Shown: positions 20,870 through 54,637 of the stretch, piece after piece
How positions within the stretch are numbered: position 1 is the stretch's first letter
Layout of the letters: every line of letters starts with the position of its first letter
Assembly: GCF_025151535.1 (NCBI RefSeq)
Contig: NZ_CP102288.1
Location: 2,303,501 to 2,367,500, forward strand
Length of the DNA: 64,000 bases
DNA from: Segatella copri DSM 18205
GTDB lineage: Bacteria; Bacteroidota; Bacteroidia; Bacteroidales; Bacteroidaceae
Reading direction: 5' to 3'
Program-made: the position numbers and the translations under genes
Notes under the pieces: generated by a model
What the model was told of the DNA's origin: nothing
Databases searched by the model: none
The model's input: the letters and a program-made list of their open reading frames with translations, nothing else

Positions 20870-21850
20870 TTAAACATTCCCGTTTTTTGTCATTAATGAC
20901 ACTTTTCGGGAATGACGATGATTATAAAAGTAGAGATTCTGCACCTTATCATGGAGCATAGAAGCATGGAGAAGACCATTCTTCCATTCTTCAGGAATAT
21001 GGCATATTCCAAATTTAGCACCCAGGGTAGCTCCTGCTACTGCTGCATTGGTATCCGCATCTCCTCCTGACAAAACAATCTTCAAGATACCCTCCTTATA
21101 CGAGGTTGCATGCCAATAAGCCCATAGGGCAGCCCCTAAAGTTCCGAGCGTATATCCCATACTATTTTCATCATCCAGACACAAAGAATCCAGACCTTCA
21201 TAATATGCCAAGTCAATAAATGGAACGATTCGTTCATCATATTGTTTGGCTATGCCAATCACATCTTCATAATCCAATATCCTGTCTTCAAAGACAAGAG
21301 CATGTATGATAGAAGAAACGATAACGCAAGAGCCAACACAGCGAGGATCATAATGAGTTAGCTTACAGATATTCTCTGCATTATTAGCCACATTGTCCTT
21401 CAAAAGTCCTACCACCGAAGTTCTCATGACGGCTCCATTAGCTGCAGCTTTTTTCTTTCCCATCTTCCAGATAATCTCTGCAGCCTTCTGTGGATTCGAA
21501 GTATAGTCACCAAGAGCCATTACATTATATGTATGCCGGCCAATTCCCATGCCTCCGTTCATCATCCATTCCTTAAACCTTCTGGCAATATCAAGAATAT
21601 CTACCTTTTGACAAGCCACAAAAGAATCTAAGATGCATAGCATCATGTCGGTATCATCAGTCCAGTCGCCTCTTTGCCAACGACGACGATGATCATCCTG
21701 CACGATTTGTGAATAATCCTCTATCCCATTAGGATAAAAACGATCCACCTCTTGCTTGGACATAAACTCCGTGCTCAGTCCCAAGGCATCTCCTACAGCT
21801 TGTCCGAAGATGGTACCGAGGAATCTTTCTTTTAAAGTTTCATTTTCCAT
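20870..21850 (-). CDS. ADP-ribosylglycohydrolase family protein
   Basis: A 326-residue protein from ATG 21850 (MENETLKERFLGTIFGQAVGDALGL). It has the DraG/ARH metal-binding motifs: GDWTDDTDMM near the N-terminus and LSGGDADTNAAVAGATLG near the C-terminus. Such enzymes remove ADP-ribose from proteins or related molecules with two Mg ions. The open frame extends to 22090, but its first 80 residues only overlap the upstream gene and lack family features. It lies 34 bp after the related gene upstream, so the two are a tandem pair. Confidence 0.88.
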   Translation of the reverse strand: MENETLKERFLGTIFGQAVGDALGLSTEFMSKQEVDRFYPNGIEDYSQIVQDDHRRRWQRGDWTDDTDMMLCILDSFVACQKVDILDIARRFKEWMMNGGMGIGRHTYNVMALGDYTSNPQKAAEIIWKMGKKKAAANGAVMRTSVVGLLKDNVANNAENICKLTHYDPRCVGSCVIVSSIIHALVFEDRILDYEDVIGIAKQYDERIVPFIDLAYYEGLDSLCLDDENSMGYTLGTLGAALWAYWHATSYKEGILKIVLSGGDADTNAAVAGATLGAKFGICHIPEEWKNGLLHASMLHDKVQNLYFYNHRHSRKVSLMTKNGNV

Positions 21851-21884
21851 ATTTTTTCTATTCATACAACCAACAATCGTAAAA

Positions 21885-22598
21885 TCATCCATCTCCAGCC
21901 ATACACGCCATAGTATCTGCATCACCGCCAAGAGAGATGGCATTACGGATAACAGAAGTATAACTATCTGCTTCGAGATATGAGATGATAGATTCAGGAA
22001 CACTCGACTGACAACTAACCCTAAATCCATAATCGGGACGTATTTCTGCAAGAGTACGGTGAAGATTGTACCCTTCAAAATGAGCCTCAACGTAATCGCA
22101 TATTTGCTTTTTGTCTTTTCCTTGACGAGCCAGAAAGATACAAGCAGCTATAGCCTGCGCCCCCTTTATCCCTTCAGGATGGTTATGAGTCACCTCTGCA
22201 GAAATCTTAGCAAGCAGTAAAGCCTCATCCAATGTCTTGGCATAAAAGCCACATGGACTTACTCGCATGGCAGAACCGTTGCCATAGCTGTTATACGGTT
22301 CCGTTTTTCTACTAATAATCCACCGCAAGAACTTCTTCCCATAGCCAACAAACATATACTTCCGTCCCAATTCTTTCATACACTCCACGAGCTTCTCATG
22401 AGTATGTTCAGGATCTATCGTCAGCCATTTTGCAACAGCCAAAGTCATAACCGTATCATCCGTAAAACGAGGCTCTTTGTATATATAGAAGTCCCCATGC
22501 TTTACCGGATGAAATTCATACGCAGCCCCGAAGCAATCGCCAGCAATAGCTCCAATGATACCAGTTGTAGGTACAGTTTTACAAGTTATATGTCCCAT
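21885..22598 (-). CDS. ADP-ribosylglycohydrolase family protein, short C-terminus
   Basis: A 237-residue protein with GAIAGDCFGAAYEF, FTDDTVMTLAVA and SLGGDADTMACMAGDG. The family normally continues 20-40 residues beyond this last motif, so the end looks truncated although all metal-binding motifs are present. It differs clearly from the next gene, which argues against a recent duplication. It overlaps the 3' end of pgpA by 20 bp, indicating co-transcription. Confidence 0.85.
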   Translation of the reverse strand: MGHITCKTVPTTGIIGAIAGDCFGAAYEFHPVKHGDFYIYKEPRFTDDTVMTLAVAKWLTIDPEHTHEKLVECMKELGRKYMFVGYGKKFLRWIISRKTEPYNSYGNGSAMRVSPCGFYAKTLDEALLLAKISAEVTHNHPEGIKGAQAIAACIFLARQGKDKKQICDYVEAHFEGYNLHRTLAEIRPDYGFRVSCQSSVPESIISYLEADSYTSVIRNAISLGGDADTMACMAGDG

Positions 22599-23373: not shown

Positions 23374-26223
23374 TTAGATTTTCTTTAGCAAACTCCAGAT
23401 TTCACGAATCCAAAGCACAAGTGAAGAACCAACGATGATGATTACCCAATCCTCAAACTTCAGACCAGTAACATTGAAGAAATTCTGCAAACCAGGAATC
23501 TCTACCATAGCAATCTGACCAGCCAAAATGATAGCTGCAATAATCAACAAGCCCTTGCATCCCTTGAAATGAAGCGCACTCTTACCTGTCTCAAATGCTC
23601 TTGCACAGAAGAGATAGAAGAAGTGAGTCATCACGAAGATGGTGAAGAATAAGGTCAACTCGTAAGGAGTAAGATCATCAGATGCACCTAACTGAACGTT
23701 GAGTAAATCTGTTAACTGCGTAATATTCGAATGCTCAAAGACATAAAGTAATACAAGCAGCAACACAAAGAAGAATCCACCTACGCCCAAGATGTTCTGA
23801 TACATCGCCTTATTCAGGATAAAGGCATTTCTATCTCTTGGCTTATCTTTCATCACGCTCTCTGATGGAGGCAAAGATGCCAATGCCATTGCAGCAAAAG
23901 TATCCATAATCAAGTTTACCCAAAGCATCTGAGTTACGGTAAGCGGACTTTCCTCGCCCATAAATGCGCCAAAAAGAACGATAAAGCAAGCAGCCACATT
24001 CACAGTCAACTGGAAGAGCAAGAAACGTTGGATATTCTGATAGAGTGAACGTCCCCACATCACCGCCTTACCAATACTACTAAATGAGTTATCGATAATG
24101 GTAATATCAGATGCCTCCTTTGCTACAGAAGTACCATCACCCATAGACAAACCAACATGAGCAGCCTTCAAAGCAGGGGCATCGTTGGTTCCGTCACCAG
24201 TAACAGCAACGACTTGGTTCTTTCTTTGCAAAGCCTCAACCAATCGTTTCTTATCCATAGGACGAGCACGAGAGATTATCTTCAAATCCAAGACTCTCTT
24301 ATCCAACTCTTCATCAGAAAGAGCAGCAAACTCTGGACCAGTAATAATATTCTTATCACCATCCTTTGCTGTCCACAGACCAATTTGGCGACCGATTTCC
24401 TTAGCTGTACCAGGAGTATCACCAGTAACAATCTTCACATTGATACCGGCATTCATACATTCTGCAACGGCTGCAGGAACATCCAGACGAACAGGGTCGC
24501 TGATAGCCACAACACCCATAAAGGTTAAATTATCTGCCACAACCTTACCATCCTTGAATACGTCAGCCTTACTATCAATTATTTGATAAGCGAAGCCGAG
24601 GGTACGCATAGCTTGGTTCTGATATTCAACCAACTGGTTCTCAATATCAATTTTTGAAACATTGTTCTCGATGTTCTTGCACAAGCCACTTACAATTTCA
24701 GGAGCACCCTTGACATAGAGAATTGTCTTGCCTCCAAACAAGGAAGACTTAACAATTGTTGCCATATACTTACGCTCCGTAGAGAAAGGCAACTCCTCCA
24801 AAACCTCAGCAGACTCACGTAGATTCAGATAATCAACGCCAGCCTTCTTGAGCCAAAGAAGCAAAGCGCCCTCTGTAGGATTACCCAATACTTTTACAGC
24901 CTCAGCATCTGAATAATCCAAAGAAGCAGTTGAATTAACCGCGATACCTTCCTCTATCAACAGACTACCCTTATCATTACCCAACGTCTGAGCAGAAAGA
25001 CCATAGAAATTGGTATCATGCACTTGCATCTGATTCAGTGTTAAAGTACCAGTCTTATCGGTACAGATAACTGTCGTAGCACCCATTGTCTCACAAGCAT
25101 GCATTTTACGAACCAAGTTGTTGGTCTTCATCATTCGAGTCATACTATAAGCCAAACTCAGAGTAACAGCCATTGGCAAACCTTCTGGTACCGCAACAAC
25201 CACAAGTGTTACTGCAATCATCAAGGTATCCAACGTATATGTAATCAACTTAGCTATTTGCTCACCCGGCATCAAAGTATCATGGAAATAAACTACCATA
25301 CCCATCAATATCACAAAATAGCCAATGATTGCTGGAACAACAGCCTTCCAACTCCAGTCGTCAAACTTTTTAATAACCATCCAGAAAAATATAGCTGTAG
25401 GAACCGCCAATGTCAAAACAATAGGACTCCAATCAAAGAACACCATCAGCTTGAGAACAATGATAAGGGCTGCAAAGATATAACTCAACTTGGTTATCAA
25501 GTCTGCCAATCCATCCAACTGTTCATTTAATGGGGTGCGAACGCTATCATCTATCTGGGCAGCCTCAAAGACTTTACCATTTTCCGTTTTGTCACCAACT
25601 GCCAAGACTTTGAAGATACCATGACCTTCCATCACCTTTGTACCACGCATCACATGGTTAGAAGGGAATGTTGCATCCTTATCAAACTCCTGTTCATGAA
25701 TCGTCTTATGACAAATAGGCTCACCAGTCAAAGAAGACTCATCAACATTCAAGGTAATCGCCTCTAAAAGTTCACCATCAGCAGGAATTTCCTCACCTGT
25801 ATTTAACACGACAATATCACCAACGACGACATCTTTCTTCTTGATAGAAGTTGTGTTTCCATTTCGGATTACCTCTACCATTTCGTCGTCATTGACTTGG
25901 TTGAGAACCGAGAACTGCTTATCAGCCTTTAACTCAAAGATAAAGGCGATACCAGTGGCAAGCAAAATAGCCACAAATATACCAACAGGTTCAAAGAAAG
26001 TCTCTGCACCTTCATGCAATCCCCAAAACTCATAGCAAGAAATACCGATAGACAACACTCCGGCTATCAGCAAAATGATAATCAGAGGGTCGCCAAACTT
26101 CTCTAGGAATTGTTTCCATAAAGGTTCTTTCTCTGGTGGTGTCAAGATATTGGCACCATGTTTACTACGGCTTTCGAGCACTTGGGCATCGGTCAAGCCT
26201 GTGTAATGATGTTTTTGTTCCAT
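23374..26223 (-). CDS. Calcium-translocating P-type ATPase (PMCA type)
   Basis: A 949-residue P2-type ATPase. Visible features: an N-terminal cation-ATPase domain (HHYTGLTDAQVLESRSKHGAN), the TGE actuator loop (ESSLTGEPICHKT), PEGLP in helix M4 (VAVPEGLPMAVTLSL), the phosphorylation site DKTGTLT and the hinge VTGDGTNDAPALKAAHVG. About ten membrane helices are spread as in SERCA/PMCA. It would export Ca2+ from the cytoplasm. Its location next to a TerD operon, whose products bind Ca2+ in known family members, may be meaningful, but a terminator separates them. Confidence 0.93.
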   Translation of the reverse strand: MEQKHHYTGLTDAQVLESRSKHGANILTPPEKEPLWKQFLEKFGDPLIIILLIAGVLSIGISCYEFWGLHEGAETFFEPVGIFVAILLATGIAFIFELKADKQFSVLNQVNDDEMVEVIRNGNTTSIKKKDVVVGDIVVLNTGEEIPADGELLEAITLNVDESSLTGEPICHKTIHEQEFDKDATFPSNHVMRGTKVMEGHGIFKVLAVGDKTENGKVFEAAQIDDSVRTPLNEQLDGLADLITKLSYIFAALIIVLKLMVFFDWSPIVLTLAVPTAIFFWMVIKKFDDWSWKAVVPAIIGYFVILMGMVVYFHDTLMPGEQIAKLITYTLDTLMIAVTLVVVAVPEGLPMAVTLSLAYSMTRMMKTNNLVRKMHACETMGATTVICTDKTGTLTLNQMQVHDTNFYGLSAQTLGNDKGSLLIEEGIAVNSTASLDYSDAEAVKVLGNPTEGALLLWLKKAGVDYLNLRESAEVLEELPFSTERKYMATIVKSSLFGGKTILYVKGAPEIVSGLCKNIENNVSKIDIENQLVEYQNQAMRTLGFAYQIIDSKADVFKDGKVVADNLTFMGVVAISDPVRLDVPAAVAECMNAGINVKIVTGDTPGTAKEIGRQIGLWTAKDGDKNIITGPEFAALSDEELDKRVLDLKIISRARPMDKKRLVEALQRKNQVVAVTGDGTNDAPALKAAHVGLSMGDGTSVAKEASDITIIDNSFSSIGKAVMWGRSLYQNIQRFLLFQLTVNVAACFIVLFGAFMGEESPLTVTQMLWVNLIMDTFAAMALASLPPSESVMKDKPRDRNAFILNKAMYQNILGVGGFFFVLLLVLLYVFEHSNITQLTDLLNVQLGASDDLTPYELTLFFTIFVMTHFFYLFCARAFETGKSALHFKGCKGLLIIAAIILAGQIAMVEIPGLQNFFNVTGLKFEDWVIIIVGSSLVLWIREIWSLLKKI

Positions 26224-26224
26224 T

Positions 26225-26662
26225 TTATTTTTTCTCTTTGAATAATTTCAATACGTATTCCAAAATACCATTTGGCACACATTCAATATCCAGCCATTCA
26301 AAATCAGGTGGTCCAGAATGATAATTTGAGACTTGAGCATATAAAATGTCATTTTCTATACAAAAGCCTTCCAACAAGAACCAAGTTTCATCTAGCCATC
26401 CATCATAATCTGGTCCCTTCCAACATAAGGGAACATTCTCAATACACATGCCATGAAAATCTATCAAGTCACCATAACCTATTTGTTCTATTATATGATT
26501 ATAAAAACCAGGATTTTCTGTGTAAAGTTTGTATATTCTATCTTTAACCTTCATATAATTCTGCTCAAATTCATTTTCATATTTTATAGAGCCATCATTA
26601 ACATTAATTTCAACTTGTATAATGATGTTTAATTCTGAAATTCTTATAGCATATAAAAACAA
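26225..26662 (-). CDS. Hypothetical protein between TerD operon and Ca2+ ATPase
   Basis: Not recognised. The open frame encodes 145 residues with a Trp/Asp-rich middle (CWKGPDYDGWLDETWF, HSGPPDFEWLDIE). No membrane segment is seen. The first usable codon (TTG 26662) lies in the 3' flank of the terminator hairpin, so the real start may be the ATG at residue 37 or the 5' end may be lost. It ends 1 bp before the Ca2+ ATPase start, suggesting coupling to that gene. The acidic, aromatic composition is reminiscent of small immunity-type proteins, but that is only an impression. Confidence 0.5.
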   Translation of the reverse strand: MFLYAIRISELNIIIQVEINVNDGSIKYENEFEQNYMKVKDRIYKLYTENPGFYNHIIEQIGYGDLIDFHGMCIENVPLCWKGPDYDGWLDETWFLLEGFCIENDILYAQVSNYHSGPPDFEWLDIECVPNGILEYVLKLFKEKK

Positions 26663-26704
26663 TTTGGACAGAAAGAGTAGTACCTACCCACCCATCTGTC
26701 CAAA
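26663..26704 (-). terminator. Terminator of the TerD/tubulin-like operon
   Basis: The stem TTTGGACAG / CTGTCCAAA (9 bp) is followed on the minus strand by TTGTTTTTA. It lies 10 bp past the last gene and closes the eight-gene unit. Confidence 0.8.
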
Positions 26705-26713
26705 CTATAAATA

Positions 26714-27319
26714 TTAATGTCTGTATCCGTTACGATACATTTCATTTACACGCTTCTGAACAGCCTTATAATCAGAACCCAATTTGGACTTTCTTTCAGT
26801 TCCATTGCCATAAACACCATCCCAAACTTGCATAGCTTTTTCTTCTATACTTTTTCCTGATGATTCACTTTTGGTAGTTGGTACTGCAGATGTATTATCT
26901 GATTCTGCGTTTGTTCCAGTTTCAGAACTTACCTCACTTGATGTTGATTGTGATTGCTTACTTATAGGACTTGCAGATTTCTCTTCATGTGAGGTTGTAT
27001 CAGCTTTTTCTTTTTCTGTAGAATCAGAAACTATCGTGTTAGTAAGCTCATCTACCTTTGATTCATTTGTTCCACAACTTCTGTAAGCAACAAAAGCAAC
27101 AACAATCAAAACTATAACTGCAATAATAGCAAGTATCTTGTTCTTGCTACCATTTCCATTATTGCCACCATCTGTTTCTTGCGTTTGCACATCTAAAGTT
27201 TTATTTTGAGGAGTATCCAATACAGGAGCTTGCTCCTTTTCTATATCGAAATGTCGCTCAACATGTTTTTCCATATTAAAGGAACGTGTCGATTTTCTTT
27301 GATTTTTATTATCAGCCAT
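26714..27319 (-). CDS. Single-span membrane protein with Cpl-7-like C-terminal motif
   Basis: A 201-residue protein: a charged cytoplasmic N-terminus (about 1-60), one membrane helix (KILAIIAVIVLIVVAFVAYR), a long Ser/Thr/Glu-rich linker, and a C-terminal segment VWDGVYGNGTERKSKLGSDY plus KAVQKRVNEM. That segment resembles the CW_7 (Cpl-7) repeat of phage lysozymes (W-G-N-G-x-x-R-K-x-x-L, Y-x-x-V-Q), which binds peptidoglycan. The C-terminal half would therefore face the cell wall. It is the last gene of the operon, 20 bp after terD. Confidence 0.7.
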   Translation of the reverse strand: MADNKNQRKSTRSFNMEKHVERHFDIEKEQAPVLDTPQNKTLDVQTQETDGGNNGNGSKNKILAIIAVIVLIVVAFVAYRSCGTNESKVDELTNTIVSDSTEKEKADTTSHEEKSASPISKQSQSTSSEVSSETGTNAESDNTSAVPTTKSESSGKSIEEKAMQVWDGVYGNGTERKSKLGSDYKAVQKRVNEMYRNGYRH

Positions 27320-27339
27320 AACTACAACTTTTTAATTCA

Positions 27340-27945
27340 TTAACTAGCATAGATGTCTATGAGAGTTTCCAAGCCACCAACATGACCAACACCAACAGCT
27401 TCAAACTCCCAATCACCATCCTCATTTACAACAAGTTTGGCAACAGACAATGCTGTTTCTTCTGTGAAAGCCTCATTTAGCTCGTATCTGCAAAGCTCTT
27501 CATCGTTCACTGCATTAACTACACTGATAAAAGCATCTTTAACATCGCCAAAAGTCATTCCTTCATCATGTATTGACACAACAAAGACAATTTCACAAAC
27601 ATTTGGATCAACTTTGTCCAAATCCACATCAATCTGTTCCCCCGAACCGCCATTGCGATCATCAAGAGAACCTAGAACTGCTCCATCACTTGACATTGGA
27701 CGTGTTTCAGCCATCCACTTACGCTTGTTACCAAACACCGCACGGTCAAATGGTTGCTCTCGATTCTCTGAGTTATAGAACACGAAACCTGCATCATCAA
27801 GTATCACGCCCTCATCGCCACAAAGAAAAGTTGAAGCATCAAGGTCGGCATCGGAATTCCAATCCAATACCACCTTGATTTTACTCAAACCTTCCGATTT
27901 GGCTATTTTAAAACGTTCTCCTTTTGACAAATTAAATCTTCCCAT
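27340..27945 (-). CDS. terD: TerD family protein (first of two)
   Basis: A 201-residue TerD-domain protein: MGRFNLSKGERFKIAKSEGL, then DADLDASTFLCGDEGVILDD, GSLDDRNGG and EDGDWEFEAVGVGHVGGLE. The DxDxS-type acidic loops are those that bind Ca2+ in characterised TerD proteins. It is 23 bp downstream of the second terD gene, and the two are clearly diverged paralogues. Ter proteins are known from tellurite, phage and stress-resistance loci; their molecular role is unsettled. Confidence 0.93.
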   Translation of the reverse strand: MGRFNLSKGERFKIAKSEGLSKIKVVLDWNSDADLDASTFLCGDEGVILDDAGFVFYNSENREQPFDRAVFGNKRKWMAETRPMSSDGAVLGSLDDRNGGSGEQIDVDLDKVDPNVCEIVFVVSIHDEGMTFGDVKDAFISVVNAVNDEELCRYELNEAFTEETALSVAKLVVNEDGDWEFEAVGVGHVGGLETLIDIYAS

Positions 27946-27968
27946 AGTCGTAATCGTTTGAAAATTTA

Positions 27969-28616
27969 TTATGCATAAATATCAATGAGAGTCTGCATGC
28001 CACCATCATGACCTTCACCTACGGCTTCAAATTCCCATTCACCCTCATCATTACAAACTAGCTTAGCTGCTTCAACTGCAGTCTCTGTGGAGAAATTTTC
28101 CTTAAGATTATACTTACAAAGCTCCTCACCAGTCTCCTCATTAGAAATGGTAATAGAAGGCTCACGAACTGCCCCAAAGGTCACTCCATTTTTGTCCCCA
28201 TGATAGATTGTAACGCAGAAGATGATTTCTTGAACTTTTGGACTCACCTTAGAAAGATCCACGTGCATAGTCTCACCAGCCTCATCACCTTCCTCATCAT
28301 CGCCAAGGTCATCTAGAGAGCCAAGGACAGAACCATCTGCAGAAACAGGAACTGTAACAGAACGCCAATGAACTTTATTACCATGAACAGCCTTATTGAA
28401 AGGCTCAAGCTCACCAGTCTCAGAATTAGCACGATGATTAGAATTGTAGAACACAAAGTCTGCATCATCCATTATCATGCCATCTGTACCTACAAGAAAA
28501 GCGGATGCATCCAAGTCTGCACCTGATTTCCAATTAAGGTCAATCTGTACCTTCTCCAATCCCTCACTCTTGTCAAGCGCAAAGCGCTCACCTTTTTCAA
28601 TTTGAAATCTTGCCAT
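27969..28616 (-). CDS. terD: TerD family protein (second of two)
   Basis: A 215-residue TerD-domain protein from ATG 28616 (MARFQIEKGERFALDKSEGL). It has GADLDASAFLVGTDGMIMDD and an acidic insertion, LDDLGDDEEGDEAGETMHVD, absent from the first TerD. The open frame extends to 28661, but those residues have no family match. It follows the 658-residue protein by 22 bp. Confidence 0.93.
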   Translation of the reverse strand: MARFQIEKGERFALDKSEGLEKVQIDLNWKSGADLDASAFLVGTDGMIMDDADFVFYNSNHRANSETGELEPFNKAVHGNKVHWRSVTVPVSADGSVLGSLDDLGDDEEGDEAGETMHVDLSKVSPKVQEIIFCVTIYHGDKNGVTFGAVREPSITISNEETGEELCKYNLKENFSTETAVEAAKLVCNDEGEWEFEAVGEGHDGGMQTLIDIYA

Positions 28617-28638
28617 AATCTTACATTTAAATTGTTTA

Positions 28639-30615
28639 TTATATTGTTTTATACTGTTCAATAAGTTGCTCTATTTCTGCAGTTTCCAAGTTATACAATC
28701 GATAAAGAGCCGAACAATTTTCCAACTCTCTGATTGCATTCTGTTTGCTTGTCATATTACGACTACGACGAACAGAATCGATACCATTTACGTACGATGC
28801 TATATTGCGCTTTGCCCTTATCAATTTAGAACAAGCCTGAGCCATCTCAGAATTACCCTCCTCTGCGAAAATTCGCTTTGCTTCCGCAAATAATCCCTTT
28901 TGAAGTAGCATCTCTGCTTCAGACTTTTTCTTTTTGGCTGGGTTCTCTTCTTTTTTCACAGCGCCAGCATTTTCTAAGCCATATTGCTTTCTTATGTCTG
29001 CTAAAGCAGCGTCAAACTCTTTGATGTCATCACGATGCAAACGTGTTTCTAGCTTATGCAATGCTATTCTAGCATCATCCTTTCTACCAGTTCGAGCCAA
29101 AGCTTTTATATCTGCTGTCTCTCGATGAAACTCTCGCTGTATCTTCTTCAAGTCAACGACAGGTGCTTTCTTTGGAATATCAGAAACAGGCTTAAGGACT
29201 GACGATAACTTGTCTCTATTTTCTGGAGCCTCCTTCACTTTCCTCTTCATGCTCCCCATTGTTTCTGACAACTTACTCAAATCGTCATTCCATTCTGTAA
29301 AGCCTTTTTGAGTTACCCATTCTTTCAATTCTTCATAAACTGCATAAGCACCATTTGCATCATTTCCTCGAAGTTTAGCATTTATATCTGCCTTCATAAC
29401 TCGAACCTTTCTTTTGTCCGCAGGAGTTGGAACAGCAACATTTTCCACTGGTAATACGGAAGCTACCGAAGTTTCTTTTGAAACAACAGGTACTGTCTGC
29501 ACCTTAGGAGTTCGAGAAAACAAATTACTCACGTCATAATCTGCCATTTTTACCAAACCTAACAATCGGTCTAGCATCAAGTTTTTCACTTTCTCCGTTA
29601 CCTTTCTAACTGGATAAGCCAACGCCATCTGCCCAAAGATATTCTCAAAATAGTCAGTTGCAGCTTTTCCCACCAAAACAACTTGACATTGCTTTACATT
29701 CAAGCCATTGTTATTCAAAGCCTCATTCAGATGATGCGAAACCAATCTAGATGCCTCACCTATAGCAGACATATCCAAGTCGTCTCGGGACAAACAATAA
29801 GCTTGCATAGAGCCATCGCTCATACACAATTCTTCATTAGCCGTCCTCACATTACTATTGAGAAATCGCAATGCTGCTTCTCTCAATATATTTTCCTCTT
29901 GTTCACGAGGCTGATAGTTATAATTAAAGAGTCCTGCCCAAATCAAATCCATTGTCTGTTTCAATCTTGGGTCACTTCCCAGTCCTTCTATTCTTATGGA
30001 ATCCATAAGCGTTTCTCTAGTTACAGCATCATAAAGTTGCAACAGCAAATCATTCTTATCTACCGAAACCATAATAGCAACCTTTGCCCTTTGTTTTTCT
30101 GGCAAAGATTCCATAACAACAGGCAGCAAAAGCTGACAGTAACTTATGGAACACATATTCTGAAAGCCACCTTTTTCAAATGGGCTACTTATAAAAAGTT
30201 TCTTATCCGTATCTATTTCTGGGGCAAACAGGAACACCAATGGCAACTTAGATACATTACTATCAATATTCCCGACCTCTCCATAAAAACGGTTTTGTAA
30301 GATTTTATTAACATAATACTTGATTGCATAGAATGGTAATTTATTGAGTTGCTCATCACGTCCTGCAAATCGAAATGTACGCATTTCCTTACAAGTATCG
30401 AAAATGTTAGCAAAAGCATTTGGAGCCAGTTTTTGGGTTGCCGAGTCCAACGCACTCTTGCCTATCACAAACTCATTGCCTACACATTCTATGGCAAAAG
30501 GCATCTCACCTCCACCATCCTGCATGAAATCGACAAAGCGATTGTCGCCATCCGTGCGGTAATAGCGGAAGGAGATTGTATTACGCGATATAGTTACCAA
30601 TATGCAATAATTCAC
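28639..30615 (-). CDS. Large protein of the TerD operon, possible degenerate actin-like fold
   Basis: Not firmly recognised. It is a 658-residue soluble protein. The N-terminal 350 residues alternate strands and helices, with an internal VKQCQVVLVGKAATDYFENI segment that could correspond to the adenosine loop of the Hsp70/actin fold, but no clear phosphate-1 motif. A Pro/Lys-rich linker (about 370-400) leads to a helical C-terminal region with repeats of TPR-like spacing (AEMLLQKGLFAEAKRIFAEE). It lies between the giant actin-like protein and terD with 22-bp gaps on both sides. Confidence 0.6.
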   Translation of the reverse strand: MNYCILVTISRNTISFRYYRTDGDNRFVDFMQDGGGEMPFAIECVGNEFVIGKSALDSATQKLAPNAFANIFDTCKEMRTFRFAGRDEQLNKLPFYAIKYYVNKILQNRFYGEVGNIDSNVSKLPLVFLFAPEIDTDKKLFISSPFEKGGFQNMCSISYCQLLLPVVMESLPEKQRAKVAIMVSVDKNDLLLQLYDAVTRETLMDSIRIEGLGSDPRLKQTMDLIWAGLFNYNYQPREQEENILREAALRFLNSNVRTANEELCMSDGSMQAYCLSRDDLDMSAIGEASRLVSHHLNEALNNNGLNVKQCQVVLVGKAATDYFENIFGQMALAYPVRKVTEKVKNLMLDRLLGLVKMADYDVSNLFSRTPKVQTVPVVSKETSVASVLPVENVAVPTPADKRKVRVMKADINAKLRGNDANGAYAVYEELKEWVTQKGFTEWNDDLSKLSETMGSMKRKVKEAPENRDKLSSVLKPVSDIPKKAPVVDLKKIQREFHRETADIKALARTGRKDDARIALHKLETRLHRDDIKEFDAALADIRKQYGLENAGAVKKEENPAKKKKSEAEMLLQKGLFAEAKRIFAEEGNSEMAQACSKLIRAKRNIASYVNGIDSVRRSRNMTSKQNAIRELENCSALYRLYNLETAEIEQLIEQYKTI

Positions 30616-30637
30616 TTTCTTCTGATTTTATCTGTTT

Positions 30638-33600
30638 TCAACTCTTAAATATGTTCATCAAGAACTCATCGTAGAACTTCATACCTTCGAGGATGATGAT
30701 AGGAGCCACATAGTCAAATTTATCTTGGCGTCGGGCTTTCTGCATCTCTGGAAGATTTTGGATATAAGTATTGATATTCGCCATAGAATTAATACCATTC
30801 ATCATTTTTTTCAAGTCCACCATATCTCTTCCAAATAGACCATTTACATACTTATAGAATATTCCTGCAAAAGTATAGAAACACATTTTCGTTGTATCCA
30901 AGTTATTAGGAGATTTGAAACAAACTCCAATGCTTTCCATGAACTCTGGAGAAATACTATCTTCAAATGTAAGTTCTTCTTCATTGCCTGTACTTGTATT
31001 ATAGAGAGTAAAGCCATTTTCTCCAATAATCTCAATAACTTTATCAGAGATTTGCAATGGACTTGCAATGGTCTTAGCCAATCCCTTAGATACTTCAAAC
31101 TTCACCTCATTAGCTTGTTTGGTCTGGATATCTATAGTTGGCCATCCACCAAGATTACCCTTGACTACATCAATGCCCCCCATACCCATACAGAACATCT
31201 CCATATAGTATTTTCTCGCAACATCTTTATTGATGGTGTATAACCATTCAAAAATGCGAGATCCTTTGCCTGCAAAGATAATCTTTACCTTTGGTCGCCA
31301 ATCAGCCTTAAACATAGACAACTCGCCAGACTGACGTGCTTCCTTTACCAATTTTATAGCCAATTGTCCTGCATAATAAGTGATAAGACCTGTAACATAC
31401 ATATCCACACAGAACAAAGGACTACATTCTGTAGAAAGGATTTGATAAAACTCCGCAAGTTGTTTCGTATCCAACAAATCGACCACTTGTTCGAAATAAT
31501 AAGGGGCAGTAGCTGCAGAATAGAGTTTTTGTCCATCATTAAACCCAAGTAATTTCAAGTTGTTGCGATGGCAGATATTAGTCAAAGCATTCTCAAACTG
31601 AACATCCATAAACTTGGTTGCAGCTGATATTCGCTGGGCTGCAAAACGAATTGAATTCTGTTTCAACATTTTGCTTGCCACATTGTCCTTACAGATTACA
31701 GAAATATCCGTCGTACTTCCACCAACATCAAAACAGAACGTCAATTCATTTGTACTATTAATATTGTATGAAAGGAAATTAGCCACAGCACAAGCTTCCG
31801 TCATGGCTTTACTTGTATCTATATCCTTAAAATCAAACCTAAAAGGTTCTCGATTAGGCACAAGTGGCTTTTGTTCTTTTTTCTTTTGTTGAGGAGAGGA
31901 TGTTCCAAAAGGATTATCACTATCATCAAATGCACTTGTAGTATTGGAGAAAGGAGCCTCATTTTGTGGAGAAGCAAAAGCATCCGTAGAACCAAAGGCA
32001 TCGCCTCCAAATGGGTCGCCTCCCCCAAAAGGATTATCATTGTCAAAACCATCATTGGAAATGCCCCCAGAAACATCTACCGTTATTCCAAACCCATCTG
32101 AGCCTATACCACCTGTATCCATACCTGGAATTTTAGAAACTGATAACGGAACAGGATTCCCCGCAACATCTATCACAGGAGATATATGTTGCAAAGACTG
32201 CCAAATTTGGTTATATTGCAACATCAAATTATATCCCATTGCCGAAGGATACGACCATCTAAGAACATTTGGTACAAATCCTTTAACAAACAACTCTGCA
32301 TAGATATGCAATAACAAAGAAGCTAAAAAAGCCTGCTTATGCGCCTTATCCTCCTCTCTATCACTCCACTTCATATTATGGATGAGTTGCACAATATTCT
32401 GTCCACCTCGGAAGCCAAGCGTCATCGTGTCATCCGCAACATTGTCAACAGGCAAGTGACGGCAGAAGCATGGGAATCCTCCTTGTACAGCTTCACTGCG
32501 CAAGGTATTGATACCATCCAACTCATTTTTTGGCAAACGTTGGTCATCGTGGATGGCAAGAATGCTCTTAATGGCATTCGAATACAAATCTTCATTTTGG
32601 AAGAAGAGCACATTTCGCTCAGCAGGAGCTTGATTGGCATTAGCTCCCAAATCAGTAAAGAGCGATACTCGCTGACCAGTAAACTGTATGCCTTCTGCAT
32701 ATTGCATCTGCCCATCATGATAAGCCACAGAAGTATTAGTACTTCCAAAGTCCACACCAACAGTAACATCACTCAATGTACGATTAACATCAAGCATATC
32801 CTTTGGTAAGGAATCGTTCGCATTTAAGTTACTGCTATAATGTATCAAAATAAAGCCACTATCACAACCAGTGATATGAGTAAAGCGCACTCCTCTGAAA
32901 GGATGCTTGCTCTCAAATATCTCATATTTATATTTGCGAGTTGCAGTACGATTATCGCTGGTCACCAACAGTTTGGCATCACCCAAAGCAACACCTTTAT
33001 CTGCAAGATACTGTATATTACCATCATAATCGGTAATAATCTCATTATCTTGCTTTTCATTACCGACAAAAGGAATTGCGCTATACTGGCAATCCTCTTG
33101 ACGAGCATTGTGTGGCATCTCTGAATATAAGAAATAACGATTCCACTTATCGGAAATGAAATTAGGCCACAACACGACATCTTTGTTTCTCTTAAATATA
33201 CCATTAATCTTGTACTCTATAGGAATGGTCTTCTCCTTACGGTCACCATTTTCATCGGTTACAGATATAGTCAACCGCACTGAAAGATTAGATTTATCCT
33301 CATCAAACTCGGCATCCATGTGTGAATTGATACTAACGCCAGCTTGAGTATACCCCAGCAAAGAGCTTACATTACGACCAAACACTACCAATCCCTTTTG
33401 ACTCAAAGGGATAGCAAAGAAGGCATAATCCGTACTGCCTGTCCTATGTGCTCTCAACAAAAATATAGGCAATGTCGCTATATCCTTTTCACCTTTTTCA
33501 TACTCACGTGGTAGCCAAAATCTAAGCAACTTAGAATCCTTAGGCAACAAAAGTTCCTCTGGTTTAAAAGCTTTTGACACTCCATCAGCATCAGGTTCCG

Positions 33601-34507
33601 TGGTTATATCTCCATTATATCCATAAAGTTCCTCTGTATAATTAAGGAAACTAAATGGTAATCCAAAGCCTTGTACAGGAAGAGCACTTGCATTATTCTC
33701 ATCGAGCTTTCGGTCACGTATAAGTTTCAAGATTTCATTACGCCATGTACCCAATTCACCCTTGATTCCTTCATATGTGAGTCCAGTCTGCTTGTAGTAG
33801 TCTTCCAACTGCTTGATACGAGGCAACAACTTATCTACGTAAGCAAACAAATTGAGCAACTGTTCATCAGAAATCGTGCTATGCAGTGGGTCTGTAAAAC
33901 GGTGAGTCGCAGGGTCTACAAACGCAACATTCTTATCTATACCATAAGACACAGAAGTAAAGAACAACGAGCGAGGCGAAGTGGCACCAACCACTTGCTT
34001 ATTATATTTAATAAGGTATAGAAAAGGCTGCACTTGGGCATTTTTAGCCTTACCCTGCTCTGTCCAAAGGCTGCGGTCATTCATCAGCATATTACCAAAA
34101 GCACCTTTTGGCTCATACATATTTTCCGTAGTCTTCATATCCTTACCGTCACTATAGGCAAGTGTGATACGACGTATCTCTATTGCGGTATTATTCAAAG
34201 CAATACAAGCTATAAGACCTCGCCACTCATCTACAAGATTGACATAATATTGGTTTAGTCCAACAGAAGCATCCTTACGGATTGTCTGTATTTCATTAAG
34301 TGCATGATTGAAAAGGTCGGCACGAGCAAATACAGTTGGTACACCCGAAACAATGGCACTAACATCAACTCCATCCTGAATAGATGGAGTCTCTATATCT
34401 CGTGTAAAAGCTTGTATGCTTGAAGTCAAATCCTGCCACTGTCCAGCAGCTCCTTGTTGTTGGCTACGAGGTTTGACATTGATTACTAATGCTTTAATAT
34501 CTGGCAT
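30638..34507 (-). CDS. Giant actin/Hsp70-fold protein, SrfB-like
   Basis: A 1289-residue protein. Residues 1-570 are unrecognised alpha/beta sequence. An actin/Hsp70-type ATPase follows: phosphate-1 VTVGVDFGSTNTSVAYHDG (about 580), phosphate-2 LTFCFDVGGSTTDISVICKD (about 926) and adenosine loop VKIIFAGKGSRIFEWL (about 1077). Between them is a low-complexity insertion (about 820-875) with (N/D)PFG motifs. The architecture resembles SrfB-type proteins, which occur with TerD and tubulin-like genes in other bacteria. It probably binds ATP in the cytoplasm and works with the tubulin-like protein encoded 20 bp upstream. Confidence 0.75.
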   Translation of the reverse strand: MPDIKALVINVKPRSQQQGAAGQWQDLTSSIQAFTRDIETPSIQDGVDVSAIVSGVPTVFARADLFNHALNEIQTIRKDASVGLNQYYVNLVDEWRGLIACIALNNTAIEIRRITLAYSDGKDMKTTENMYEPKGAFGNMLMNDRSLWTEQGKAKNAQVQPFLYLIKYNKQVVGATSPRSLFFTSVSYGIDKNVAFVDPATHRFTDPLHSTISDEQLLNLFAYVDKLLPRIKQLEDYYKQTGLTYEGIKGELGTWRNEILKLIRDRKLDENNASALPVQGFGLPFSFLNYTEELYGYNGDITTEPDADGVSKAFKPEELLLPKDSKLLRFWLPREYEKGEKDIATLPIFLLRAHRTGSTDYAFFAIPLSQKGLVVFGRNVSSLLGYTQAGVSINSHMDAEFDEDKSNLSVRLTISVTDENGDRKEKTIPIEYKINGIFKRNKDVVLWPNFISDKWNRYFLYSEMPHNARQEDCQYSAIPFVGNEKQDNEIITDYDGNIQYLADKGVALGDAKLLVTSDNRTATRKYKYEIFESKHPFRGVRFTHITGCDSGFILIHYSSNLNANDSLPKDMLDVNRTLSDVTVGVDFGSTNTSVAYHDGQMQYAEGIQFTGQRVSLFTDLGANANQAPAERNVLFFQNEDLYSNAIKSILAIHDDQRLPKNELDGINTLRSEAVQGGFPCFCRHLPVDNVADDTMTLGFRGGQNIVQLIHNMKWSDREEDKAHKQAFLASLLLHIYAELFVKGFVPNVLRWSYPSAMGYNLMLQYNQIWQSLQHISPVIDVAGNPVPLSVSKIPGMDTGGIGSDGFGITVDVSGGISNDGFDNDNPFGGGDPFGGDAFGSTDAFASPQNEAPFSNTTSAFDDSDNPFGTSSPQQKKKEQKPLVPNREPFRFDFKDIDTSKAMTEACAVANFLSYNINSTNELTFCFDVGGSTTDISVICKDNVASKMLKQNSIRFAAQRISAATKFMDVQFENALTNICHRNNLKLLGFNDGQKLYSAATAPYYFEQVVDLLDTKQLAEFYQILSTECSPLFCVDMYVTGLITYYAGQLAIKLVKEARQSGELSMFKADWRPKVKIIFAGKGSRIFEWLYTINKDVARKYYMEMFCMGMGGIDVVKGNLGGWPTIDIQTKQANEVKFEVSKGLAKTIASPLQISDKVIEIIGENGFTLYNTSTGNEEELTFEDSISPEFMESIGVCFKSPNNLDTTKMCFYTFAGIFYKYVNGLFGRDMVDLKKMMNGINSMANINTYIQNLPEMQKARRQDKFDYVAPIIILEGMKFYDEFLMNIFKS

Positions 34508-34527
34508 AAGACTTATATTTTAAACTT

Positions 34528-36201
34528 TTATAATTTAGCACTAAAAGGAATTGTAAAGTTGATGGCGTTGAACATATGCGCCAAGAAACGTTCTTTCATT
34601 GTGCTGACATTTTGCTTTTCATCTACAGGACGGCACTTAGGGAGATTTTTGATGAAATCATCATAATCTGTACGCTTGTCTGTCTTAAACAAGCCTGATT
34701 TTCTTTCCTCTTGAATCTCCTTACATGGATCCATTGCAGCAAGAGACATCACATTTTCCTCAAAAACCTTCGATGGGAACAAGAAACGACTCACACCTGC
34801 CAAACGTACAGAGTTATATACTTGATAAATCCATCCACGCTTTATAGTTCCATTCTCTGTACTATAGGCAAATTCCTTCATGTAGTCATCAATCTCCTTA
34901 GACTGTTCTTTTTTCATGTCGTTGTAGTCAGGGATTTCCTGTTCCGCTAGACGAGTAATAAAGCCACGTGTACCTCTCGTCTTATCTTCCACATTATTCT
35001 GCAATAAAGCACCACCATGCTTAGATAGAACGATATGTGCTAAGGTCAAGAATGAGCCCAACTTTTGCATAAACTCAGAAGCCTTGGATTGACTTACGAA
35101 ATCCGTACCACGGAAAGTTAAGTTCTTTGCATCATCCAATTCTACCGAACGATACAAGTATTGAACCGAAGTATTTTGTAAATTCTGATCAGCAATCGTA
35201 AAGAAATCATAAGCTGCACAAGCACTCATCATTTCCACAACATGGCAAGCATTTTTTTGTTCTGCGCCACCTGTGATTGTTTTACCGCCATTGCTATCTG
35301 AGACATTAAGGTCTTTTGCTGGCCAGCCTATATGATAGAAACGCTTATATCGTTCCTTCACCGTCTTGTCATTCTGATAGAACTGCAAAGCCGCTTGTGA
35401 GTTGATGGCAAAATAATCGGATGAAGCTATCAACTTTTCTTGCTTACGTTGCGCATCAGAAGGAGATTGGAAACTGAAGTATTCCGTAAGCAAAGTGGCT
35501 CCAAACTTCACCTTATTGAAGTCTATCGTATTTTGCGAGATGATATTTCCGGCCTCTTTCAAAGCCTCAGGCACAACAGGTATCGAAGATGCACCTGTTC
35601 CACCAAAAACAGAACCAAACACAAACACACGAGCACCTGTACCGCTCTTCTGCAAGCCTGTCAGAAAATCAGCCAACTGTAGCTCTGGTTCTGTTGCCTT
35701 AGCTTTGTTTGCCACATAATGACAAGCCGCCTCTACTATGCCATGATACATCAGCATTGAACCTAAATGAGTTTGCGCACGGTAGCCATGATCCAGATTA
35801 AAACTTTGTACAGTATCATGCTCCAAGAACAAGTCTGCCAAATCATGATCATCTTCTTCCGTTTCCTGTCCTACACCCTGTGTAGCGCTCAATTTAGAAT
35901 AAGTACTACGGTTTGCCATAGAATAATCCGTATAGAAACGATAAAGGTTCAGTTTGGAAGAGAAGAAAGTATTGGAATTCGGACTTCCACCAGGTGATTC
36001 TGGATTATCAGTCTTCACCTTATTATATAACTCAATCAATCGTTCTACACGGCCCTTATTACCATTGCTTTGGTCGGTATCAAGTGTAAGTATGTTGATT
36101 TCTTCATTGTCAAACATTCCTACAGCGCAGAGATGCACGAAAGCCTCCAAACACCTCATCCCCGTGCCACCAATGGCTATAATAAATAAACTATCTTTCA
36201 T
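34528..36201 (-). CDS. Tubulin/FtsZ-fold protein (Tubulin_2-like)
   Basis: A 557-residue protein with a GTPase-type N-terminus (SLFIIAIGGTGMRCLEAFVH) and the tubulin signature variant FVFGSVFGGTGASSIPVVPE near residue 200, where FtsZ and tubulin have GGGTGS. A Ser/Asn-rich loop (NGNKGRVERL) follows the first nucleotide motif. It belongs to the tubulin-like group seen in multi-gene clusters away from cell-division genes. No membrane segment. It probably binds GTP and may polymerise; it is co-transcribed with an actin-like ATPase and TerD proteins. Confidence 0.8.
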   Translation of the reverse strand: MKDSLFIIAIGGTGMRCLEAFVHLCAVGMFDNEEINILTLDTDQSNGNKGRVERLIELYNKVKTDNPESPGGSPNSNTFFSSKLNLYRFYTDYSMANRSTYSKLSATQGVGQETEEDDHDLADLFLEHDTVQSFNLDHGYRAQTHLGSMLMYHGIVEAACHYVANKAKATEPELQLADFLTGLQKSGTGARVFVFGSVFGGTGASSIPVVPEALKEAGNIISQNTIDFNKVKFGATLLTEYFSFQSPSDAQRKQEKLIASSDYFAINSQAALQFYQNDKTVKERYKRFYHIGWPAKDLNVSDSNGGKTITGGAEQKNACHVVEMMSACAAYDFFTIADQNLQNTSVQYLYRSVELDDAKNLTFRGTDFVSQSKASEFMQKLGSFLTLAHIVLSKHGGALLQNNVEDKTRGTRGFITRLAEQEIPDYNDMKKEQSKEIDDYMKEFAYSTENGTIKRGWIYQVYNSVRLAGVSRFLFPSKVFEENVMSLAAMDPCKEIQEERKSGLFKTDKRTDYDDFIKNLPKCRPVDEKQNVSTMKERFLAHMFNAINFTIPFSAKL

Positions 36202-36216
36202 AATCGAAACTCCATA

Positions 36217-36558
36217 TTAGAACCAAGAACCTAACTTGCCTTGCTTGTTCGCCTTAGAAACAACAAAGCCAAGAGCAACATATACCACCCATGAAACACA
36301 AAGTCCAATAGACATATGTAGCATAAATGTACTTTTCTTTGAACCAGTTTTCAAACCTATATATACAAACAAAAATGCAAGTAATGCAGAAACAACAGGT
36401 GCAACAATACTGGAGAACCAGAATATCACCTTACGTTTTCTTACATCACTCAGATTAGGCTGATAAGAAACATTGTTGGACAAAATGATAGCCAACACCA
36501 AAGCCAATACCGATGCCACCAAGGCACAAATATAAACAGGAACGATAATTTCTGACAT
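36217..36558 (-). CDS. Small membrane protein of the TerD operon
   Basis: A 113-residue protein with three predicted helices (about 5-26, 44-68 and 79-103) and a basic cytoplasmic loop (NLSDVRKRK). No family recognised. It lies 15 bp before the tubulin-like gene and 30 bp after the lipoprotein, and could connect the cytoplasmic components with the periplasm. Confidence 0.75.
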   Translation of the reverse strand: MSEIIVPVYICALVASVLALVLAIILSNNVSYQPNLSDVRKRKVIFWFSSIVAPVVSALLAFLFVYIGLKTGSKKSTFMLHMSIGLCVSWVVYVALGFVVSKANKQGKLGSWF

Positions 36559-36588
36559 ACTTTTTCTTTTTATATGGTTATACGATTG

Positions 36589-38139
36589 TTATTGATTCAT
36601 TCTGATAAAATAGCTATATACACAGCTACCTTGAGGATTGCAATGCTGTAATACATTTCTAATCGCAGAGCTGAGACAATTATTGCCAGGCCAAGAGAAG
36701 AGGTTATCTATTTGAACACCAAGATTTGGCTCTGCCTTAGCCACAATAATGTCTATGCGATAAAGACCTGAAGGTTCCTCATTACCAGCTATAACACCAC
36801 CAAACTGAGGATTCAAATCTACAGCTAACTCTACATCATGTCCTTTCGTCTTGGCAAAAGATTGAGCGAACAAACTTTGATCAAAGGCTACCACTCCTTG
36901 AATATCCGCAATATTTCTACCTCCCAACTTTACATAATCAAACTCAGGTAAAAGTTTACCTTGCTCATCATATAAGTTAGAGCTTTCAGTTGGCACTTCA
37001 ATCTCTTTTTCTCCTTCAACTATTGTAGTCTTAGGTTTATATAGCATAGCTGTATGCCAATTCATATAAAGGTCAAAATCTTTTCCTATGTCCGCCATTC
37101 TTGCCGCTAAGCCTTTTATTTGATAAGAATCGACATTAGAAAAATCTGCATATAGATTTTGGAACAAATGCCGGAATCGGTATTGCAAAGGAATTTCTTC
37201 TTCCTGCTGGCCACGAGCATTTTCCACGATAGCTTGCCACCCCTCATCAAAAGTATACAACTCGGCACGTGATCCCTGCAAGAAATTAAAGCCATCATCC
37301 TTTCCATTCTCCACAGACCCAGTAACTACATCATCACCATTTGCATCATGATAAGTTCCACCTATACAAGGACCTGCATAAGCACCACTTGTTCCACCTT
37401 TCTTTGGCAATACTGTGTAGTTATGCATAGAAAGCGTAAAACGTTTATAGTTCTGAGCCTTGCCTTGCAAACCATCTTCAATTTCTTTCAAGAAGCGATG
37501 ATTCTCGTCATCAAAAACAGTATAGTAAAGATGTTTATCTAGAGCACCTTCTTTGTAATCTGTCACAAAGAACGTTATATCCTTACCTCTCTTTAACCAT
37601 TCCTCAAAGTAAGGAGTAGCATAAGCTTGTTGATAAATCTGATGTCCTGGTGTATATTCCTCGTAATCCGTTACCAACAAGGCACTTCTATTCTCATCGA
37701 CAATTTTCTTGAGAGTTTTTTCTATAGGAGCATACAATTGTCCTTGAGCTGCAGGGTTATGTAGTTGAGCAAAGATATTCGCAGCTGAATGCAAATCGTT
37801 TCCATTCAACTTTTCAATCTTTTCATTAGCCAATGAATAAAGGTCATAATTATTCAATGAACCTGTAACCTTCTGTGTGATACCATTAAAGGTTTGAGCA
37901 GTAGCTGGGTCATCGTATGCTATATAAACACCAGAAAAATCAAAATAGGCAGCCCATTTCCCCTCATTTGGCATTCGCTGTGAGTCTTTCTCGTAGTAAG
38001 CTTGGATGTTTTGTGGATTAGGACTCAAATCCACCTTATGTCCACCACAACTTGACGTGCAACCAACAAGACTCATTGAGGCTAAAAACATCAATAAAGA
38101 AGAACCAATCCTAGGCAGTTTTAAAGATCTATTCAACAT
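36589..38139 (-). CDS. Lipoprotein, first gene of the TerD operon
   Basis: A 516-residue protein with a lipoprotein signal peptide (LLMFLASMSLVGC, Cys27). The mature part has a recurring strand-loop pattern (WAAYFDFSGVYIAYDD, ALLVTDYEEYTPGHQ, ITFFVTDYKEGALDKH) that could form a Rossmann-like or VWA-like fold with a DFSG loop; this is an inference. Two later cysteines (NNCLSSAI, QHCNPQGSC) may form a disulphide. It would sit in the periplasm or at the surface and provide the extracytoplasmic part of the system. Confidence 0.75.
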   Translation of the reverse strand: MLNRSLKLPRIGSSLLMFLASMSLVGCTSSCGGHKVDLSPNPQNIQAYYEKDSQRMPNEGKWAAYFDFSGVYIAYDDPATAQTFNGITQKVTGSLNNYDLYSLANEKIEKLNGNDLHSAANIFAQLHNPAAQGQLYAPIEKTLKKIVDENRSALLVTDYEEYTPGHQIYQQAYATPYFEEWLKRGKDITFFVTDYKEGALDKHLYYTVFDDENHRFLKEIEDGLQGKAQNYKRFTLSMHNYTVLPKKGGTSGAYAGPCIGGTYHDANGDDVVTGSVENGKDDGFNFLQGSRAELYTFDEGWQAIVENARGQQEEEIPLQYRFRHLFQNLYADFSNVDSYQIKGLAARMADIGKDFDLYMNWHTAMLYKPKTTIVEGEKEIEVPTESSNLYDEQGKLLPEFDYVKLGGRNIADIQGVVAFDQSLFAQSFAKTKGHDVELAVDLNPQFGGVIAGNEEPSGLYRIDIIVAKAEPNLGVQIDNLFSWPGNNCLSSAIRNVLQHCNPQGSCVYSYFIRMNQ

Positions 38140-52656: not shown

Positions 52657-52838
52657 GCGTTTAATGAAAGAGACAAGAAGTTGCCCTGCTCGTGATGGGT
52701 GGTACGATTTTTTATTCTTATTATTTGTTAATGGGCAGTTATTTTTCACAGCTTTTTATTAAATTTGTAGATGGTAAGGCATTACTATATTATGTCTATG
52801 CTATAAGTGTAAACAATTTTCAATACAACAAACAGCCT

Positions 52839-54632: not shown

Positions 54633-54637
54633 AACGT

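Follow-up and report, generated by a model that had tools for sequence, protein, structure and literature searches.

An eight-gene operon of Segatella copri with a tubulin/Hsp70-type core in fixed order across Bacteroidota and an exchangeable TerD and wall-anchor module

We analysed a stretch of 64,000 nucleotides from Segatella copri DSM 18205 (NCBI RefSeq assembly GCF_025151535.1, contig NZ_CP102288.1, positions 2,303,501 to 2,367,500; here termed the window), which carries an operon of eight minus-strand open reading frames running from position 38139 to 26714 in the order Lip-TM113-Tub-Act-p658-TerDa-TerDb-anchor. The core of this operon recurs in fixed order across many Bacteroidota, and the TerD pair together with the wall anchor is an exchangeable 3′ module. 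The genes, and the hairpin behind them, are as follows.

36589..38139, minus strand: Lip, a 516-residue lipoprotein with the lipobox LVGC (by eye) and a probable von Willebrand factor A (vWA)-type fold
36217..36558, minus strand: TM113, a small hydrophobic membrane protein of 113 residues with three hydrophobic stretches by eye
34528..36201, minus strand: Tub, 557 residues, tubulin/FtsZ superfamily of the Tubulin_2 type, with the motif GGTGAS
30638..34507, minus strand: Act, 1289 residues, an N-terminal region of ~570 residues and an actin/Hsp70-superfamily ATPase region with a long insert, as assigned by sequence
28639..30615, minus strand: p658, 658 residues, a predicted pseudo-Hsp70 with a nucleotide-binding-domain fold in residues 1–360 and a helical region behind it
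27969..28616, minus strand: TerDa, a TerD domain protein (Pfam TerD, E-value 5.9e-44)
27340..27945, minus strand: TerDb, a TerD domain protein (Pfam TerD, 1.1e-41)
26714..27319, minus strand: the anchor (CW7), 201 residues, with N-terminal FxhxK tags, one transmembrane helix, a linker and a CW_7 domain (4.6e-12)
26656..26725, minus strand: a terminator-like hairpin directly behind the anchor gene

Read 5′ to 3′ along the operon, the intergenic gaps are 30, 15, 20, 22, 22, 23 and 20 bp. Both the eight minus-strand frames and the spacing of 15–30 bp were claimed in a preliminary description of this DNA, and both are present. The frames were called mechanically and their start codons may be wrong; for TerDa an ATG was preferred over an upstream TTG. 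The single terminator claimed behind the eight genes is borne out by folding, which gives a long hairpin at 26656–26725 (−26 kcal/mol, z −5.4, with none of 200 shuffles as good) followed by TTTTT. A simple terminator scan had returned only a modest site behind the anchor (15 sites in the stretch vs 8.4 expected), and the reading of a weak terminator taken from that scan was dropped once folding showed the hairpin to be strong. The G+C content of the operon is 0.365–0.41, that before position 26000 is 0.41–0.52 and that beyond 40000 is 0.34–0.46; composition alone thus does not prove a foreign origin.

Conservation was assessed on the best 80 of 155 confirmed loci from one scan of 84,980 species genomes. 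Because the search for loci used two peptide patterns of Tub, this protein is present in 80/80 by construction, and near-copies among the loci (L042/L044, L080/L083 and L067/L068) mean that counts overstate their independence. Profile searches of the open reading frames detected homologues of Act in 79 loci, of TM113 in 78, of Lip in 76, of p658 in 72, of TerD in 53 and of the anchor type in 51, one of the last being a GAP1-like protein. The order Lip-TM113-Tub-Act on one strand is kept in 75 of the 80 loci, the exceptions (L062, L081, L090, L101 and L108) being cut by contig ends. Judged by their labels, the hosts are Bacteroidota, including Prevotellaceae, Muribaculaceae, Barnesiella, Pedobacter, Chitinophaga, Flavobacteriaceae and others. 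A contig labelled Saccharibacteria is probably a binning error, given that its Tub is identical to a Bacteroidales one. The preliminary description would have been refuted had the eight genes not stood together in other genomes; they do, and the gene order recurs in many of the Bacteroidota loci.

What stands behind p658 varies. TerD follows in 52/80 loci (two copies in 48, one copy in four), mostly with the anchor after it, while 14/80 instead carry a zinc-ribbon P-loop GTPase and a GAP1-like protein of ~600–890 residues, some of these cut by the locus end. Another 14/80 have neither module; of these, L085, L098 and L103 continue differently and the other 11 are truncated. Two of three GTPases scanned matched Pfam DO-GTPase above its cut-off (2.2e-7 and 8.9e-7), the third falling just below it (6e-6), and GAP1-N2 or GAP1-M was found in all five partners scanned, in every case below cut-off (1.4e-4 to 0.035). 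Pfam found neither DO-GTPase nor GAP1 among the eight proteins of the window operon. Placed on a quick Tub tree with some long branches, the TerD/GTPase label changes at least four times over 67 labelled rows. We consider it highly probable that the TerD module is exchangeable with the DO-GTPase and GAP1-like pair. Two of the GTPase-type loci, L067 and L068, are near-identical operon copies in one metagenome bin.

We also inspected 20 further loci, chosen by hand from the Tub matches of class and genus scans, whose Tub identity is 25–44%. Act accompanies Tub in 20/20, and genes of ~130–150 and ~400–560 codons mostly precede them. Their 3′ parts include an aspartyl protease (L121, 7e-19) and a protein kinase (L136, 5e-19). 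Given that the 3′ parts differ again here, a core with exchangeable tails seems to be general. In two of these distant tubulin–Act loci the 3′ module holds a long membrane or coiled-coil-like protein (L119:15098-17395 and L133:15081-16592). Behind that of L119 lies a 225-residue protein resembling ZorB1 (NF041788) at 4.8e-5, far below cut-off, and this type of tail possibly links these operons to Zorya-like motors.

The operon is patchily distributed. In the class sample any Tub match was present in 22/395 genomes and a long match of ≥38% identity in 7/395, the host itself included; in the genus sample the figures were 38/150 for any match and 3/150 for the close type, again with the host included. 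TerD occurs in 17/395 genomes of the class, three of which also hold a close-type Tub. The closest Tub among genome contigs is that of S. copri iA622, at 97%. Carriage by plasmids or phages was considered and set aside, there being only five plasmid records, all cyanobacterial and of 23–26% identity, and no phage record. One contig of a viral collection (L178, 40% identity) encodes Lip, TM113, Tub and Act together with an anchor and a weak match to TerD, with no match to p658, and may be either a prophage neighbour or mislabelled host DNA.

The sequence motifs claimed in the preliminary description (GGTGAS, the actin/Hsp70 loops and the lipobox LVGC) are all present. For Tub, the pattern GGTG[AGST][SG] of the GTP loop is found in 79/81 Tub frames of the 80 loci. 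The window protein itself lies below the Pfam cut-offs (Tubulin 6e-4; Tubulin_2 2e-3, 17.7 bits vs 27), Tubulin_2 is matched at E≤0.01 by 22/24 Tub sequences (best 2.8e-6), and PF13809 is precomputed on 4 of 120 Tub homologues listed. The host genome (G000) has two further FtsZ/tubulin-family matches, at G000:C1:3053178 and 3080211, as have several genus mates.

Act carries, in order, VGVDFGSTNT (phosphate-1), FDVGGSTTD (phosphate-2) and FAGKGSR (adenosine), and patterns of these loops are matched by 73, 68 and 63, respectively, of its 79 close homologues. Comparison by hhalign gave 2.4e-5 with MreB and 2e-4 with DnaK, against 0.56 for the control FtsZ, and on this sequence evidence we assign Act to the actin/Hsp70-superfamily ATPases. 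By structural model, p658, to which the preliminary description assigned no fold, is a second Hsp70-fold protein: residues 1–360 are predicted to adopt the Hsp70 nucleotide-binding-domain fold, with a helical region behind, and the closest folds are Hsp70s, the first Foldseek row being the ribosome-associated complex (RAC). The patterns of its ATP-binding phosphate loops are matched by only 2/73 and 1/73 homologues, which makes it a pseudo-Hsp70. In a profile search against the PDB its top rows were designed helical proteins (0.0017, C-terminal part), followed by Hsp70 at 0.016–0.029, and hhalign of p658 against DnaK gave nothing; with profile matches this weak or lacking, its Hsp70 fold rests on the model. 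Re-examination of folds by VIA covers only matches already found by Foldseek, and a fold family missing from its lists is not thereby ruled out. The idea of one ATPase and one GTPase of cytoskeletal folds therefore needs amendment: the tubulin and actin/Hsp70 assignments hold as sequence-level predictions, and there are two Hsp70-superfamily proteins, one of them a predicted pseudo-ATPase.

An SrfB-like component, which had also been suggested, was not recovered. There is no Pfam SrfB match at E≤1 among the eight proteins, and a scan of 35 Act sequences at E≤0.1 returned 14 families, none of them SrfB; an SrfB identity was accordingly rejected. In the HMM (hidden Markov model) search proposed in the preliminary description, TerD matched, CW_7 scored above cut-off and Tubulin_2 below it in the window protein, and SrfB gave nothing. 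Lip is probably vWA-like, with the fold at about residues 57–237 and partial residues of the metal-ion-dependent adhesion site kind (DFS, VTDxEE, compared with DxSxS...T...D for the full site); in three distant loci the proteins at the Lip position have no Pfam vWA match, despite an E.SGSM motif in them. TM113 matches no Pfam family above cut-off.

Both TerD domains named in the preliminary description are confirmed by Pfam. TerDa aligns with the solved TerD structures 2kxt and 3ibz at 1.7e-23 and 2.8e-21, respectively, with the loops DLDAS, DAxFxFxN and DGSV in common. Besides TerDa and TerDb the host genome has no TerD. No other gene of the classical ter operon (TerB, TerC and so on) was found when the eight proteins and ten more from the window were scanned; the genome has a single TerC match and a single TerB match, about 270 kb and 630 kb, respectively, beyond the window. 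A supposed difference in bit score from canonical TerDs was not upheld, since minor TerD paralogues in other genomes overlap with those here.

The anchor has a constant layout of a short cytoplasmic N-terminus, one transmembrane helix, a low-complexity linker and a C-terminal domain. The cell-wall-binding-like C-terminus noted earlier in the window protein is indeed a CW_7 domain above cut-off. When the window protein and 36 of 52 anchor matches were scanned (near-copies and odd lengths left out), this domain was OmpA in 22/37, CW_7 in 13/37 and neither in 2/37, the window being included in these counts. CW_7 and OmpA are known wall-binding domains, and the best evidence that wall binding matters is that two unrelated domains of this kind stand on one anchor scaffold. 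That relatives bear OmpA instead of CW_7 also strengthens the tie to peptidoglycan proposed earlier. The N-termini of 48/52 anchor sequences (a set that includes a GAP1-like protein and a few that are unusually long) hold 100 FxhxK tags between them, compared with a mean of 4.2 and a maximum of 10 in shuffles, and the same pattern falls within the first 70 residues of 65/102 TerD sequences. Furthermore, the N-termini of anchor and TerD from the same locus are similar at p≤0.01 in 16/45 loci, with 0/46, 0/46 and 1/45 for control stretches; L068 and loci lacking a usable TerD or anchor stretch were excluded, leaving 45 or 46. Locus L118, which is divergent, has two proteins that are TerD-like by eye and share with the anchor a different, VTLKRK-like version of the tag (p 0.001 and 0.0055); the one of these that was scanned has no Pfam match.

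Beyond the hairpin lies a gene that bears on the interpretation.

23374..26223, minus strand: a PMCA-type Ca2+-translocating P-type ATPase (TIGR01517, 7.8e-186, above cut-off), probably a separate transcription unit

A homologue of this pump lies 61–980 bp behind the anchor in 8/52 TerD loci, and also on contig G445:C18 (L177). At least 1 kb of downstream sequence is present in only 2/14 DO-GTPase loci. Between hairpin and pump is a frame of 145 codons (26225–26662) that has no Pfam family and whose stop lies 1 bp before the pump gene. G436, a genome of the 150-genome genus sample that is not among its 38 with a Tub match, has a pump 98% identical to that of the window; its alignment to the window ends at the pump start, where an unrelated operon stands (L176:10262-19899) with a PP2C, a kinase, a PrsW protease, a DUF4407 protein and a tetratricopeptide-repeat aspartyl-protease protein. 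With another operon beside a near-identical pump, the position next to the pump varies between close relatives. Elsewhere in the window are two adjacent GmrSD-type restriction genes and a PD-(D/E)XK nuclease (52692–57028 and 50279–51631), 12–19 kb from the operon, an ADP-ribosylglycohydrolase-family protein near the pump (20870–22090), and group II intron domains (1406–1703 and 3151–3241) flanking an open reading frame. The intron pieces, away from the operon, were all that Rfam found in the window.

We propose, at a probability of about 0.5, that the operon encodes a cell-envelope-anchored complex driven by nucleoside triphosphates, one of the 'GTPase-centred' conflict or stress systems with tubulin and Hsp70; of the architecture and homology set out above we are far more certain. 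In the proposed mechanism, Lip in the outer membrane or periplasm and the anchor, reaching from inner membrane to peptidoglycan, would tether the cytoplasmic NTPases to the membrane. TerD would stand in for the DO-GTPase–GAP1 switch of the sister loci, and the cytoplasmic tags of the anchor, resembling TerD's own N-terminal strand, would dock it at the membrane. A breach of the envelope would let Ca2+ leak in and TerD change, whereupon the tubulin and Hsp70 proteins would assemble at the membrane and seal it, brace it or shut down the cell; in lineages having one, the neighbouring Ca2+ pump would reset the signal. These parts do not stand equally firm. Docking of TerD on the anchor is close to an even bet, with strand exchange as its putative mode. 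A putative response to envelope breach or phage, with breach by phage, toxin or stress the likeliest use, is nearly as probable as not. Gating of TerD by Ca2+ is more tentative. That all of this holds at once is unlikely: it would mean an undescribed machine, widespread in Bacteroidota, by which a tubulin-type GTPase and a pair of Hsp70 and pseudo-Hsp70 are coupled to the wall, with TerD as a Ca2+-operated replacement of the GTPase switch, docked by strand exchange on the anchor tags, and a breach read as Ca2+ entry.

Several results weigh against this proposal. Tub matches no solved tubulin at E≤10, and hhalign of Tub against FtsZ gives only 0.011. Act reaches E 0.58 at best against solved Hsp70s, its three loop patterns are matched by 18, 9 and 4 of the 20 further loci, and a candidate mutual homology of Act and p658 was rejected when profile comparison gave nothing. 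The similarity between anchor and TerD is weak in the window itself (p 0.032 and 0.28), and locus L068 carries the DO-GTPase module plus a nearby TerD pair on the opposite strand. The pump is missing from 36 of the 44 TerD loci whose downstream sequence reaches 1 kb or more, and the hairpin speaks against transcription of the pump together with the operon. PADLOC found no convincing defence-system match in the operon, its best match (PD-T4-6, 2.7e-5) spanning the transmembrane helix and low-complexity linker of the anchor.

The most serious rival is a housekeeping-like cytoskeleton for membrane remodelling or envelope maintenance, in which TerD is a structural adaptor with no role in conflict. 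The wall-binding anchor and the fixed order of the core are in keeping with it, as is a composition of tubulin, vWA, GTPase and OmpA like that described by Makarova and Koonin (2010; PMC2875224). However, the operon is patchy even within the genus (close type in 3/150 genomes), its 3′ module is exchanged, and in a near relative the site is taken by a different operon. Patchiness, module exchange and operon replacement fit better with an accessory system of the stress or conflict type, and we regard a maintenance role as rather unlikely.

The two remaining rivals we consider less probable still. A membrane protein-quality-control machine, with Act and p658 as an Hsp70/pseudo-Hsp70 pair (as Ssb with Ssz1) and Tub as scaffold, would suit the nearness in fold of p658 to Hsp70s and its first Foldseek row, the RAC; it is made improbable by the C-terminal part of p658, which has no family assignment, and by the eight proteins, none of which matches an Hsp70 substrate-binding, DnaJ or GrpE family in Pfam at E≤1. 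That the operon is a variant of the classical tellurite/Ter system for chemical stress, to which cytoskeletal parts were added, is very improbable. This reading could draw on the two TerD paralogues, the Ca2+ pump nearby and the single matches to the TerC and TerB families elsewhere in the genome, but those matches lie far outside the window, no other ter-type gene is among the proteins scanned, and TerD is dispensable to the core because 14/80 loci hold the DO-GTPase module instead.

Should the full mechanism, with TerD as a Ca2+-operated switch docked on the anchor, prove real, the TerD family, which to our knowledge is widespread and has no agreed biochemistry, would gain a defined molecular job. 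The exchange of TerD with GTPase–GAP1 behind a fixed tubulin/Hsp70 core, and the recruitment of two unrelated wall-binding domains by the anchor type, make for a concrete, testable proposal of what TerD senses and where, and tubulin/Hsp70 GTPase-type systems are extended to gut and soil Bacteroidota. Some of these, such as Pedobacter and Chitinophaga, are culturable and genetically tractable.

A search of the open-access literature found no published account of this operon. The nearest published kind is the class described by Kaur et al. (2020; PMC7159879), which combines TRAFAC GTPases, tubulin homologues and an HSP70 protein. The GAP1-N2 section of that paper describes association with membranes, components that vary, vWA proteins, and HSP70 accompanied by another protein that is HSP70 only; it treats tubulin and HSP70 as non-overlapping themes, and places the type mainly in actinobacteria, firmicutes, planctomycetes, verrucomicrobia and chloroflexi; TerD appears only once in the paper, for another system. 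The likeness lies in the tubulin and HSP70 proteins and in the DO-GTPase and GAP1-like pair of 14/80 sister loci, whereas the window has TerD-TerD-anchor, tubulin and Hsp70 in one operon, and a Bacteroidota host. The FtsZl1 operons of PMC2875224 likewise encode a divergent FtsZ/tubulin protein, next to genes for vWA, GTPase and OmpA-domain proteins; a membrane-remodelling role is proposed for them, FtsZl1 has a coiled coil, and the alignment includes a Bacteroides caccae member. In contrast to our operon, the words TerD, Hsp70 and DnaK are absent from its text. With the TerDs of ter operons (2kxt, 3ibz) the window TerDs share the fold by sequence and the acidic loops; unlike those, they have no other ter gene beside them and are encoded with a wall anchor and NTPases. 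For Zorya, PADLOC gave no match in the window operon, and the likeness is confined to the ZorB1-like protein of the distant cousin L119. The operon thus differs from the published kinds in having TerD with a wall anchor in place of DO-GTPase with GAP1, a predicted pseudo-Hsp70 next to an Act that is intact, hosts among the Bacteroidota and, in some lineages, an adjacent Ca2+ pump.

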